From Parcubacteria group bacterium ADurb.Bin192 (GTDB lineage Bacteria; Patescibacteriota; Patescibacteriia; 2-12-FULL-60-25): a stretch of 64,000 nucleotides of DNA. Under the pieces are notes generated by a model. That model was not told where the DNA came from. It made no database searches and saw only the letters and a list, made by a program, of their open reading frames with translations. This document shows, piece by piece, positions 14,719 through 59,025 of the stretch. Location: positions 1 to 64,000 of the forward strand of contig MWCR01000007.1 of the NCBI GenBank assembly GCA_002070095.1, read 5' to 3'. Each line of letters starts with the position of its first letter. Within the stretch, counting starts at the first letter, position 1. Position numbers and translations under genes: made by a program.

Positions 14719-14763
14719 GATAAGCTACAACTAAAAACAATTCAACGCTCTGTCTACCAACTG

Positions 14764-14798
14764 TTACATGTTACATGTTACATGTTACATGCTACATG
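14764..14798 (+). repeat. Heptamer array, ttacatg type
   Basis: Five tandem 7-base units: ttacatg four times, then ctacatg. The array lies between rnpB and the sugar transferase gene and contains the -35 region of the latter. Confidence 0.9.
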
Positions 14799-14805
14799 AT
14801 ATAAT
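14777..14805 (+). promoter_or_regulatory. Promoter built on the heptamer array
   Basis: GTTACA (14777-14782, inside the heptamer array), 17-base spacer, TATAAT (14800-14805), then exactly six bases to the ATG at 14812. This predicts a leaderless mRNA. Confidence 0.6.
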
Positions 14806-14811
14806 CATCAC

Positions 14812-33361: not shown

Positions 33362-34504
33362 TTATAGATCCAAATCAGGTTCAGCGTCCAATTTCTTCCA
33401 GTCTTTGATTTTACGCCGGCTAATCATCTGCCACAAACCGGCAGCCGCAATCATGGCTCCGTTATCCGTATGCAGGCCCTTGGCCGGAGACAGGAACCGT
33501 GCGCCCGGACAAGATTCGCGCACAGCAAGCTTCAACTCGCTCCTAAGCAAGGCATTGGCCGAAACTCCACCCACCACGGCCACGGCCTTGGGTTTAAACT
33601 TAAGCGCAGCTTTGACGGTTTTAAAAACCAGGACGTCCACAATGGCCGCTTCAATGGAAGCGCAGACATCTTCTATTTTATAAACCTGTTTGTCTTTTTT
33701 TAGTTTTTCCAACAAAACTCTGACCGCTGTTTTTAAACCGGAAAAACTCATATCCAAAGACGGATCGTGCAACATGGGACGAGGCAGATCAAAAGCCAGC
33801 GGATTGCCTTGCATAGCCAAACGAGACAGCTTGGGACCGCCCGGATATTCCAAGCCAAGCAGTTTAGCGGTTTTATCAAAAGCCTCACCGGCAGCGTCAT
33901 CCCGTGTACGGCCCAAAATTTTATATTTACCAAAATCCCGCATGAGCACCAATTCCGAATGTCCGCCTGATACCAAAAGAAACAAAATAGGATATTTCCA
34001 GTGCTTACGATTGCCAGGAACCAGCCAAGCCGAAGCCAAGTGACCCTCAAGATGGTTAATGGGAATCAAAGGCTTGTCGTAATACCAAGCCAAGGTCTTA
34101 GCTCCTTCCAAGCCGACCCTCAACGCCGTGGCCAGTCCCGGACCCCGCGTCACAGCCACCGCGTCAAAATCAACCTTCTTGATTTTTGATTTTTGATTTT
34201 TGATTTTAATGGTTTTATTCAGCAAAGAAACAAGTTCAGCTACGTGCGTCCTGGCCGCCACTTCGGGCACCACTCCGCCATAACGCGCGTGAATGGGTAT
34301 TTGCGTGGCAATAAAATGTTTCTTGATCGAGACGCTGTACTCGGGAACCGCAACCGATTCTTTGACCCGCGTCCTTTCTCCGGATCCAATTCTTAATTTT
34401 GAATTTTTAATTCTTAATTGAAGCAACGCCACGCTGGTTTCATCGCAACTGGTTTCTATACCCAAGATATTCATCTGTTTTTGCTTGACCGTCTTTTTTG
34501 GCAT
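33362..34504 (-). CDS. tsaD: TsaD, tRNA t6A transferase, with two repeat-derived insertions
   Basis: 380 residues from ATG 34504; ATG 34474 (MNILGIETSCDETSVAL) is the family-typical start, but the promoter favours the first. Metal and substrate motifs are present: ETSCDETSVA, HARYGGVVPEVAARTH, VTRGPGLATALRVG, NHLEGHLAS (metal His), VSGGHSELVL and VGGVSANALLR. Two segments rich in K, I and N (LRIKNSKLRI near residue 30, and KIKNQKSKIKK near 105) are encoded by degenerate 7-base repeats and lie between conserved blocks. TsaD transfers the threonylcarbamoyl group to tRNA A37. Confidence 0.95.
   Translation of the reverse strand: MPKKTVKQKQMNILGIETSCDETSVALLQLRIKNSKLRIGSGERTRVKESVAVPEYSVSIKKHFIATQIPIHARYGGVVPEVAARTHVAELVSLLNKTIKIKNQKSKIKKVDFDAVAVTRGPGLATALRVGLEGAKTLAWYYDKPLIPINHLEGHLASAWLVPGNRKHWKYPILFLLVSGGHSELVLMRDFGKYKILGRTRDDAAGEAFDKTAKLLGLEYPGGPKLSRLAMQGNPLAFDLPRPMLHDPSLDMSFSGLKTAVRVLLEKLKKDKQVYKIEDVCASIEAAIVDVLVFKTVKAALKFKPKAVAVVGGVSANALLRSELKLAVRESCPGARFLSPAKGLHTDNGAMIAAAGLWQMISRRKIKDWKKLDAEPDLDL
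34181..34208 (+). repeat. Heptamer array inside tsaD, gattttt type
   Basis: Three gattttt units and one gatttta. On the coding strand it supplies K/I/N codons in a linker between conserved blocks. Confidence 0.85.
34388..34420 (+). repeat. Heptamer array inside tsaD, aattctt type
   Basis: Units aattctt, aattttg, aattttt, aattctt and a partial unit. It encodes LRIKNSKLRI, directly after the N-terminal signature. Confidence 0.8.
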
Positions 34505-46389: not shown

Positions 46390-47892
<1,503 letters not shown>

Positions 47893-47896
47893 ATTT

Positions 47897-47928
47897 CATG
47901 TAGCATGTAGCTTGTAACATGTAGCAAG
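47897..47928 (+). repeat. Heptamer array, catgtag type (left arm of S23 cassette 1)
   Basis: Units catgtag, catgtag, cttgtaa, catgtag plus a partial unit. Confidence 0.85.
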
Positions 47929-47939
47929 TGGACTAATCA

Positions 47940-49872: not shown

Positions 49873-49898
49873 GGCACGTCGTTCGCGAACGACGTGCC
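49873..49898 (+). repeat. Perfect 26-base palindrome with TTCGCGAA core
   Basis: Arms GGCACGTCG and CGACGTGCC around TTCGCGAA. Confidence 0.9.
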
Positions 49899-49921
49899 AA
49901 GCGACCTAGGATCCGAGTTCC

Positions 49922-49947
49922 ATCACGTCATTCGCGAATGACGTGAT
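49922..49947 (+). repeat. Perfect 26-base palindrome with TTCGCGAA core, overlapping a stop codon
   Basis: Arms ATCACGTCA and TGACGTGAT around TTCGCGAA. Read on the minus strand it supplies the last codons and the TGA of the gene ending at 49928-49930. Confidence 0.9.
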
Positions 49948-51359: not shown

Positions 51360-51726
51360 GTGGTTGCCCTATCCTTTCTTCCGTGGATTCCCGCTTTCCC
51401 CCTTCGCTGACCCAACTCCGCATAAAGCTTCGATGGATTCAGCTCCGTGGGACAAGACGCGAGAATGACGAAAATGCCGTCGGTGCATCCGAAACCCGCC
51501 TCATGCAGAGCCTTGGACTTCCCTTTGGTTAAAAACGGCTCAACTTTCACGAAGCATGTAGCATGTAGCATATAGCAATAAGTTTGATGATACATGTTAC
51601 AAGATATATGCTACATGAAATTCATGTAAATTAAGCCGTTTTTAATGCATTGATTATTAAAAGAACAATGGCTTTATTTAGCAATAAAATCAGCTTCTGT
51701 CAAGCCTTAATACGGCAAGCGGTTAT
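51360..51726. other. Intergenic region with solo inverted heptamer element
   Basis: A 95-codon minus-strand frame here (51311-51595) runs through repeat sequence and has no protein-like features. The element at 51555-51617 is the main content. Confidence 0.5.
51555..51617 (+). repeat. Compact inverted heptamer pair without a gene
   Basis: Left units catgtag, catgtag, catatag; right units atacatg, ttacaag, atatatg, ctacatg, separated by about 14 bases. It looks like the same ends as the S23 cassettes with the gene missing. Confidence 0.85.
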
Positions 51727-52311: not shown

Positions 52312-52912
52312 AAATATGTTTGATTATACAATCAGGCGCCGTCTTGCACAAAACATGTAGCATGCAGCACATAACATGTAACATCGTCCCGCGTCAAAAC
52401 AAATATTGTCATTCCCGTGACTTGTCCCGCGAAGCTTTAGCGAAGTGGGAAAACGGGAATTCACGGAACTATGAACGGCAGGATGTGGGATGTGGGATGT
52501 GGGATGTGGGACGTGTTGTACGCAAGAGCCTAACTCACCCTACCCTCTCTTACCCAAGAGAGGGAAAGAAAGCCGAAGGCGGGGATAAATTAGGACGCGA
52601 TGTACGCGATAGGACGTTAAGTACGTTATTAATTGTTGCTTAAGGTGGATTCTCCCGATGCTGCGATTCGGGATCCCGATCCCACCTACGCTAAGGCGAT
52701 GGTGGGCACCGCGAGTGTATAATTTTTTGCGAGTATCGGGACCGATTTAATTATTTAGCTCGTTAAGCCTATCAGCTGCTTAGCCGGGAATGACCATGTT
52801 GGTTTTGACGTAGGACACGGGACGTGGGGTAGTCGTTCGCGAACGACACCCCGTGGGACATTAGGTACGTTATGGACGATTGTTGTGTGCTACATGTTAT
52901 ATGCTACATGAA
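52312..52912. repeat. Repeat island between tdk and the 346-aa gene
   Basis: No gene. Left array catgtag/catgcag/cacataa/catgtaa (52354-52381), right array ctacatg/ttatatg/ctacatg (52890-52910). Between them are three to four gggatgt units (about 52482-52512), gacgtagg/ggacgtg-type heptamers, the near-palindrome with TTCGCGAA core (52822-52854), tcgggatcccgat (about 52668) and a gtcattcccg-type palindrome (about 52408-52460). Confidence 0.75.
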
Positions 52913-54583: not shown

Positions 54584-54869
54584 TCTCCCTCCTCCTTATG
54601 TATCCGCGCCGTTGATTCTCCTTACGGCCTAAATAATCATAAAAAGACCTTTTGGTCAACCATTTCATGTAGCACGTAGCATATAACATATAACATGTAG
54701 CATGTAGCATGTAACAATATCAAACCCCGTTATGCGATGAGGTAAGTTGTTTTACATCGAAAACAAAGACGAGGACGTCCACTCTGCATATCGGCTGACA
54801 TTGCATGGTGCTTTAAGTTATATGCTACGTGCTACATGAAACCATCTTTCTTCTTTGTTTTTTATTCTG
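54584..54869. repeat. Repeat island upstream of the half-MFS pair
   Basis: No gene. Left array of seven units, catgtag, cacgtag, catataa twice, catgtag twice, catgtaa (54666-54714); right array ttatatg, ctacgtg, ctacatg (54818-54838); about 100 bases of unique sequence between. Confidence 0.8.
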
Positions 54870-56115: not shown

Positions 56116-56892
56116 TCAGTTTGAGTTTCTGTCTTTGTTTCGCCATTCGGCGATTTTTTTATGGTCGCCTGATAATAAAACCTTGGGTACTTTCCAACCC
56201 ATAAATTCTTCAGGACGCGTATATTGCGCGTACTCCATCTCACCGTCTTGATTCCATGACTCCTGATCCAGGGATGAAGCCGCGCCCAAAACACCGGGCC
56301 TCAAACGCACTACAGCATCAGTCATAACCAAGGCGGCCAACTCTCCGCCCGTCATCACGTATGGCCCTATGGACAATTCCTCATCCGCCAATTTTTTAGC
56401 CACTCTCTCATCAACGCCTTCATACCGCCCGCACAAAAAAACCAAACGGTCATATTTAGCCAACCGGCGGGCATCTGATTGTGTAAACATCTTGCCTTTG
56501 GCTGAAGTTAAAATAACTCTCACTCGTCCTGCGTCACTCGTCCTGCGTCCTACGTTTTTTCCATCAGAGACGCGGGACGACTGGGACGTACGACGTGGAG
56601 TGGTCGTTCGCGCAACGACACCCCGTGCGACGCCCATTGTTTTCAATGCTTCATAAAACGGCTCCACCCGCATCACCATACCCGCTCCCCCGCCAAAAGG
56701 CCGGTCATCCACGTGCCCGTGCTGATCTATAGCCCACTGTCTTAGCTGGTGAGCTTCAACTTTAAGCAATTTATTTTTTTGCGCTCGCCCTAAAATCGAC
56801 TCACCGCAATACGCGTCAATCATTTCCGGAAAAAGAGTCAGGACATCAACCTGTAAAAACCGGCCATTCTTTTGAGACTGTTTTTTAATCAT
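56116..56892 (-). CDS. trmD: tRNA (guanine37-N1)-methyltransferase TrmD with repeat insertion
   Basis: 258 residues. Family motifs are VDVLTLFPEMIDAYCGESIL, HVDDRPFGGGAGMVMR, the knot region VFLCGRYEGVDERV and IGPYVMTGGELAALVMTDAV. TrmD methylates G37 of tRNAs to prevent frameshifting. Residues about 87-125 (rich in R, T and S) have no counterpart in the family at the usually short linker before VILTSAKG and are encoded by heptamer and palindrome repeats, in frame. The C-terminus is short and ends normally. rimM and rplS, its common neighbours, are absent. Confidence 0.95.
   Translation of the reverse strand: MIKKQSQKNGRFLQVDVLTLFPEMIDAYCGESILGRAQKNKLLKVEAHQLRQWAIDQHGHVDDRPFGGGAGMVMRVEPFYEALKTMGVARGVVARTTTPRRTSQSSRVSDGKNVGRRTSDAGRVRVILTSAKGKMFTQSDARRLAKYDRLVFLCGRYEGVDERVAKKLADEELSIGPYVMTGGELAALVMTDAVVRLRPGVLGAASSLDQESWNQDGEMEYAQYTRPEEFMGWKVPKVLLSGDHKKIAEWRNKDRNSN
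56518..56634 (+). repeat. Inverted heptamer pair plus palindrome inside trmD
   Basis: Left units cgtcctg, cgtcact, cgtcctg, cgtccta (56525-56552); right units of gacgcgg, gacgact, gggacgt, acgacgt type (56569-56596); then a TTCGCGcAA-type palindrome (56597-56627). Length fits a multiple of three (39 codons). Confidence 0.85.
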
Positions 56893-58353: not shown

Positions 58354-59025
58354 TCACTGCGCCCAGTCTCCCGTCAGCAGGTCTTCCAAACTCTTAGCAT
58401 CTTTCAGCTTATACGGGCCAATGCGCGTGCGCCTTAATTCCTTAAGATAAGCGCCGCAGCCCAGTTGCTCGCCAATATCGTGAGCCAAAGAACGTATATA
58501 GGTGCCCGAGGAACAAGTAACTCTGAATTTTAAGACCGGCCAACTATATTCCGTAATGACTAATTCTGTGATATCCACTTTTTTAGTGGGGCGCAAATGC
58601 TCCACATCCACGCCTTTTCTGGCCAATTCATAAAGTTTCTGCCCGCCCACTTTTTTAGCCGAATAAGCTGGAGCCTTTTGTTCAATCGTACCTCTGAACT
58701 TCGCCAAAGCTTCTTCTATATCTTCCCGACGCGGGACGAGCGACGTGGGACGTGCGACGACCACCCCGGTTAAATCATAAGTATCACTGGTGCCGCCCAA
58801 CTGAGCAGTCGCTTCATAAGTTTTATCCAGCCCGACCACGTCATGCAGTTTTTTGGTCTGGCTGCCTACGCCCACTAATAGCAAACCCGTGGCAAACGGA
58901 TCCAAGGTCCCGCCATGCCCGACTCGACGCGTTTTATATATCCTGCGTACTTTATCAACCACATCATGCGAGGTGATCCCGGCGGGCTTATCTATCAATA
59001 ACATGAGAGATGGAGAATCAGGCAT
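58354..59025 (-). CDS. truB: tRNA pseudouridine-55 synthase TruB with small insertion
   Basis: 223 residues. IDKPAGITSHDVVDKVRRIY, the catalytic Asp motif RVGHGGTLDPFATGLLLVGV (D42) and the C-terminal YIRSLAHDIGEQLGCGAYLKELRRTRIG block identify TruB, which makes pseudouridine 55 in the T loop of tRNAs. Residues about 89-100 (VARPTSLVPRR) derive from ggacgag/cgacgtg heptamers. The C-terminal PUA domain is absent, as in many short TruB. The gene lies inside the long inverted repeat. Confidence 0.95.
   Translation of the reverse strand: MPDSPSLMLLIDKPAGITSHDVVDKVRRIYKTRRVGHGGTLDPFATGLLLVGVGSQTKKLHDVVGLDKTYEATAQLGGTSDTYDLTGVVVARPTSLVPRREDIEEALAKFRGTIEQKAPAYSAKKVGGQKLYELARKGVDVEHLRPTKKVDITELVITEYSWPVLKFRVTCSSGTYIRSLAHDIGEQLGCGAYLKELRRTRIGPYKLKDAKSLEDLLTGDWAQ
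58726..58761 (+). repeat. Heptamer insertion inside truB
   Basis: Units of gggacga, gcgacgt, gggacgt, gcgacga type; 36 bases, in frame. Confidence 0.75.

Follow-up and report, generated by a model that had tools for sequence, protein, structure and literature searches.

Short interspersed repeats in frame within trmD and other conserved genes of a Patescibacteria genus

The best-known selfish repeats in frame within essential genes are those of Rickettsia, where the Rickettsia palindromic elements (RPEs; Ogata et al. 2000, 2002) have been found in frame in unrelated genes (reviewed in PMC10969869). The RPEs are palindromic repeats of about 100-150 bp, which encode a recurring peptide and are apparently tolerated by the proteins that carry them (PMC10969869). 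A second group of described repeats is heptameric, and includes the TAACTGA repeats of the Beggiatoaceae and cyanobacteria (PMC4679880) and the GGGNATC repeats of Xanthomonas and Nostoc (PMC4692102), which are tandem 7-nt units spread throughout the genome, mostly in intergenic DNA, with few units per array and some words that contain a stop in one strand. The GTAG/CGTC-tagged REPs have CGTC/GACG motifs and inverted pairs, and some of their copies lie within genes for replication and repair (PMC3733652). The tandem repeats of the Borg elements are also comparable, being reported as fast-evolving and as adding probably disordered segments to proteins (PMC9879509).

The repeats considered here lie in a draft Patescibacteria genome (1.44 Mb in 69 contigs; G000 in the comparisons below), and were followed up from a window, that is, the whole stretch of 64,000 nucleotides analysed, on contig MWCR01000007.1. 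They resemble the RPEs in that the same repeat is found in frame in 16 unrelated genes, with a conserved peptide among copies, but they belong to another phylum, and are formed by arrays of degenerate 7-bp words rather than by one palindrome of about 150 bp, while the sister species refill the same loops with unrelated repeats. In contrast with the known heptameric repeats, there are many word families per genome, mixed arrays, inverted pairs, and linked palindromes, and the insertions are interior to conserved enzymes, whereas the Beggiatoaceae copies found within open reading frames (ORFs) are mainly at the protein ends (PMC4679880). A REP is a single hairpin of 20-40 bp, one end of which bears an unpaired tag (PMC3733652), whereas CGTC is here the core of every 7-bp unit, and the Borgs differ in being archaeal extrachromosomal elements (PMC9879509). 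No published account of such repeats in Patescibacteria was found in a search that covered few subscription journals, which is weak evidence of novelty. The likeness to the RPEs is one of the way of working, set by description, and does not place these repeats in the RPE family.

The in-frame insert of TrmD

TrmD is a tRNA-modifying enzyme that bacteria normally need. In the assembled genome, trmD is represented by one locus, and the search for a second intact trmD, which would have counted against the original prediction, recovered none. The gene sits downstream of a KH-domain-like ORF, presumably so on account of its VIGRQG motif, of a gene that we take to be rpsP from its sequence, and of truB (Table 1); the ORFs were called mechanically. 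The protein reaches 277.4 bits against a cut-off of 220 in the NCBIfam equivalog model, and 244.4 bits against 195 in another equivalog model, so that both cut-offs are well exceeded. Together with the open frame and the conserved flanks, the former score argues that the insert is tolerated, as had been predicted.

The insert had been described as an in-frame segment of about 39 codons, residues 87-125 (56634-56518, minus strand), and these coordinates proved to be right. The alignment with a solved structure, 3ky7, is formed by two blocks, residues 12-88 and 123-254, and the 34 residues between them (89-122) face a gap or turn of two residues, which defines the strict insert given in Table 1; the number of additional codons is thus about 34-39, depending on the borders. 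The loop is located in the turn between the helix that follows GGGAGM and the strand VILTSAKG, which we take, from established TrmD structures, to run into the cofactor loop. A structure prediction of TrmD was discarded, being a single-sequence model with a pLDDT of 31.6, and a search for TrmD relatives in viral contigs, by which the alignment was to be deepened, recovered none.

The DNA of the insert had been read as an inverted pair of heptamer arrays followed by a TTCGCG-centred palindrome, and both modules are indeed located, at 56521-56627. The left array contains a perfect 14-bp direct repeat. As the GACG and CGTC arrays are inverted, the strand can fold back on itself; the predicted fold of the insert has a free energy of -52 kcal/mol as RNA (z -2.3 in relation to shuffled sequences) and a z of -2.9 as DNA, and is stable, yet exceeds the shuffles only moderately.

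Table 1. Coordinates of trmD, its insert, and related features in the window.
Feature	Position	Strand	Remarks
trmD, tRNA (guanosine(37)-N1)-methyltransferase	56116..56892	-	258 codons including insert; single copy; TrmD equivalog
Strict in-frame insert, residues 89-122 (ARGVVARTTTPRRTSQSSRVSDGKNVGRRTSDAG)	56527..56628	-	Two-block alignment to solved TrmD; surface turn before VILTSAKG
Module 1: imperfect TTCGCG-centred palindrome GTGGAGTGGTCGTTCGCGCAACGACACCCCGTG	56595..56627	.	Copies elsewhere at 88-92%
Module 2, right arm: GACG-type heptamer words GAGACG-CGGGACG-AC-TGGGACG-TACGACG	56567..56595	+	Sequence; genome matches
A/T-rich loop between inverted heptamer arrays	56555..56566	.	Sequence, folds
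Module 2, left arm: CGTC-type array, minus strand TAGGACG-CAGGACG-AGTGACG-CAGGACG-AGTG	56521..56554	-	14-bp direct repeat; 94% hflX match
Intergenic module 1 copy (GTGGGGTAGTCGTTCGCGAACGACACCCCGTG)	52821..52859	+	90% match, same window as trmD
truB	58354..59025	-	TruB equivalog, 236.9 bits; in-frame GACG heptamer array at 58724-58763 (VVVARPTSLVPRR)
DinB-type Y-family DNA polymerase (IMS)	46390..47892	-	Pfam PF00817 and PF11799; two in-frame inserts
dinB insert 1	47004-47061		Heptamer inverted pair
dinB insert 2	about 47125-47190		Heptamers and second palindrome family CCTTTCGCGAAAGG / TCCCTCCTTTCGCGAAAGGAGGGA

Copies and related arrays across the genome

The comparison of the insert with the whole genome recovers many matches, the best of which has an E of 4e-18, with 89% identity over 64 bp, whereas a search of 464 kb gave no paralogous match for the trmD DNA on its flanks; the insert is therefore not a product of chance. 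Several loci, in genes and between them, carry the palindrome and its adjacent arm at 88-92% identity over some 40-64 bp, and copies of the palindromic module are found at C10:10975, C11:22276, C13:34840, and C1:206410, in addition to the intergenic copy of the window, which bears out the earlier claim that the building blocks are those of intergenic islands. The left arm matches a segment inside hflX (C1:123819-123850), and HflX and TrmD share the peptide GRRTSDAGR, while the inverted array pair is matched elsewhere in the genome at 81%.

The copy that comes closest to being complete (C10:37026-37150) belongs to a gene resembling an O-antigen ligase (Pfam Wzy_C), where the palindrome, arm, loop, and second array have the same order and frame as in trmD, with 86% identity over 71 bp. 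The encoded peptides, TRGVVTRTTTPRRTSQSSYVNQSDAGRATRDVRR in the O-antigen ligase-like gene and ARGVVARTTTPRRTSQSSRVSDGKNVGRRTSDAGR in TrmD, share RGVVxRTTTPRRTSQSS. No single alignment in the whole genome spans the full insert, and one continuous source copy was rejected, the longest alignment being of 71 bp, apart from a looser full alignment with this same copy. Given the lack of an end-to-end copy elsewhere, the insert may have been assembled piecewise in place.

Arrays of the GACG type lie within 16 conserved genes whose sequence on either side of the array is homologous in the sister genome: rpiB, hflX, dnaE (where the array is at the N-terminal end, perhaps ahead of the real start), pheT, an asparagine synthase, two glycosyltransferases, cysS, valS, leuS, the O-antigen ligase-like gene, ychF, dinB, trmD, truB, and ligA. 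A short ORF antisense to pheT, which also has a GACG array, was left out of this count. The 16 genes are unrelated to each other, and the arrays occur in both orientations. The second insert of dinB is absent from the sister species.

A number of coding arrays were also observed individually. The truB array is a lag-7 island inside homologous coding DNA, where the sister species has a different sequence, and leuS (L308:11424-14543, minus strand; 1040 aa) contains at least three in-frame heptamer arrays of two vocabularies. A 380-aa ORF (33362-34504, minus strand) with homologous sequence in the sister genome has two in-frame A/T-rich heptamer arrays, at 34166-34217 and 34384-34423.

A scan for islands of self-similarity by lag, over 1.22 Mb of this genome sampled in stretches, recovered 165 islands at lag 7 and 32 at lag 9, and 0-2 at lags 4, 5, 8, 10, and 11, so that the units are phased in steps of 7 nt, as in the described heptameric repeats. 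The sister genome G001 has 246 period-7 islands. In homologous coding DNA, these islands are depleted in both genomes (23 observed versus 94 expected in G000, and 58 versus 138 in G001), as expected if selection purges most genic insertions. The 58 coding islands of G001 encode cycles such as RTTYNVQ, NYELRIK, and PNSKFQI, and 66 period-9 islands were also observed in that genome (L098-L157).

Exact four-unit matches of the GACG type number 54 in this genome, 33, 19, 9, and 5 in four sisters, and at most 3 in the other members of the genus, while the reversed control pattern has 0 in the genus, and such matches are nearly lacking in some 370 further genomes of the class; a scan over named genomes gave mostly unrelated bacteria among the matches listed. 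The GACG vocabulary thus hardly occurs outside this genus. Heptamer arrays in general extend beyond it, given that 96 kb of trmD loci from outside the genus have 6 lag-7 islands versus 0-3 at other lags below 14, and that an AATTA-type heptamer pattern is present in 25 of 287 Patescibacteria genomes; these loci and this one pattern form the whole of the baseline outside the genus.

A second 7-bp vocabulary of the window, CATGTAR, forms mostly intergenic arrays at 14750-14808, 47888-47933, 51540-51587, and 54661-54721, and one array elsewhere in the genome reaches 16 units. At 49877-49943, two near-perfect TTCGCGAA palindromes (GGCACGTCGTTCGCGAACGACGTGCC and CACGTCATTCGCGAATGACGTG) adjoin each other.

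One alternative is that the insert grew locally, with no mobile element, from a short seed in a loose loop, by polymerase slippage in steps of 7 nt, with the palindrome added by templated repair, in which case each species would grow a repeat of its own. Heptameric repeats are over-represented in many bacteria, for which a slippage tied to the polymerase footprint has been proposed (PMC4692102), and in G001, identical neighbouring words exceed those of shuffled arrays (36 versus 17 for NNNGTAC, and 11 versus 2 for NNNCGAA); several species also have another heptamer in this same loop of TrmD. In G000, by contrast, the arrays lack the uniform unit of the heptameric repeats, and the mixed GACG words draw on about six triplets, with fewer identical neighbours than in the shuffles (15 versus 28.8, P 0.001), as in the CATGTAR arrays (63 versus 77, P 0.02). 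Slippage cannot, moreover, yield a palindrome and arm that recur at 86-92% over 50-71 bp in unrelated places, an extent that calls for the actual copying of DNA. Simple slippage was therefore rejected as the sole source, countered by the neighbour-word test in the two word families of G000, even though the two families of G001 fit it, and local growth as a whole is considered unlikely.

The same loops in sister species

The comparison of TrmD among sister genomes, which had been put forward as a check on the insert, reveals the same loop in different states across nine members of the genus, being short in G002 and G003, and up to long in the others. The loop is filled with a GTCATTCCTGCGCAGGCGGGAATCC-type palindrome in G001, a different palindrome in G006, and AGTG-type heptamers in G008, while among more distant members of the class, G065 has AATT-type heptamers, and G057 has AATCCG-type heptamers with a palindrome. 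The loops of G008 and G065 were each detected as a formal period-7 island. The word of the G008 loop forms arrays elsewhere in that genome, and is found in no other sister except for one match in G005, which is below the reversed control for that genome.

This coincidence extends to other proteins. Of 772 variable loops located between conserved blocks in the orthologues of G000 and G001, 45 have a raised repeat content in the former, 77 in the latter, and 11 in both (odds ratio 3.2, P = 0.003); the TrmD loop is below the G000 threshold and contributes nothing to this result. The test is conservative, as its k-mer thresholds were set against coding windows that themselves hold some inserts. 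No 10-mer is common to both members of any of the 11 coinciding pairs. The gene trmD is one case of a phenomenon that is genome-wide and genus-wide, which goes beyond the original prediction.

An assembly or binning artefact, by which a chimera induced by the repeats placed intergenic DNA in trmD, would be in keeping with a draft genome in many contigs and with the ease with which repeats misassemble. The frame is, however, kept on both sides in trmD and in 15 other genes, analogous inserts occupy the same loop in the sister assemblies, and period-7 islands lie in the homologous coding DNA of two independent genomes. A chimera appears unlikely from the sequences, given the equivalent inserts in 16 genes here and in independently assembled sisters, and an artefact as an account of the insert is scarcely credible.

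The arrays and the palindrome may also be a functional element that acts as RNA or DNA structure, in the regulation of the trmD message, as a protein-binding array, in DNA uptake, or in the organization of the chromosome, the in-frame state being a mere cost of its location in a gene. The stable fold of the insert fits such a role, and the TAACTGA heptamers of the Beggiatoaceae precede start codons and have been proposed as regulator sites (PMC4679880). Against this, unrelated sequences fill the same loop in the sisters, the target genes share neither kinship nor orientation, the arrays are strongly depleted in genes, and the word families vary from species to species, which makes a functional element highly improbable.

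Proposed origin and significance

The insert probably represents selfish or neutral short interspersed repeats, RPE-like in their working, which permissive surface loops tolerate. What spread within this Patescibacteria genus would be arrays of NRS-GACG words of 7 bp, commonly paired in inverted orientation and joined to TTCGCG palindromes, with copies written into many sites, of which the coding ones would survive only if the frame is kept and the loop is dispensable. Neither strand of most GACG words contains a stop codon, the exceptions being TAG-, AGT-, and TGT-GACG in one phase, and, as 7 is one more than a multiple of 3, an array of heptamers gives one and the same 7-residue cycle regardless of the frame of entry; together, these two properties let the GACG vocabulary pass through genes unusually easily. 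An array can then enter in any frame, with only its total length having to fit. TrmD would, most likely, work as before, with a basic, Ser/Thr-rich loop, and the insert is presumably neutral for its activity.

The copying may proceed by recombination, by template-switching of replication at the hairpins, or through some transposase. A search for a mobilizing enzyme recovered Y1/RAYT transposases (PF01797) in three of the nine members of the genus, and these were rejected as the mover, their presence being uncorrelated with the repeats across the nine; no target-site duplication was seen by eye. The repeats differ from the RAYT-driven REPs on two features, as the cognate transposase is absent from the repeat-rich G006 and G008, and an array pair with a TTCGCG palindrome takes the place of the single short tagged hairpin. 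It is conceivable, if rather doubtful, that a dedicated or unusually active copying process in this genus writes steps of 7 nt, and fewer of 9 nt, from a small pool of words, and returns again and again to the same permissive loops in essential proteins, which it overwrites, so that each species comes to have a new vocabulary there.

This genus belongs to a second, unrelated, and streamlined lineage, in which a different kind of repeat, proposed here to be selfish or neutral, lies in many translation and replication genes. The sister species, which filled the same loops with different sequences, are natural replicates, through which both the permissive loops of essential enzymes and the neutrality of the inserts become directly testable. 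The repeats also provide a system for asking why bacterial repeats so often have units of seven, which give one heptapeptide cycle in any frame.
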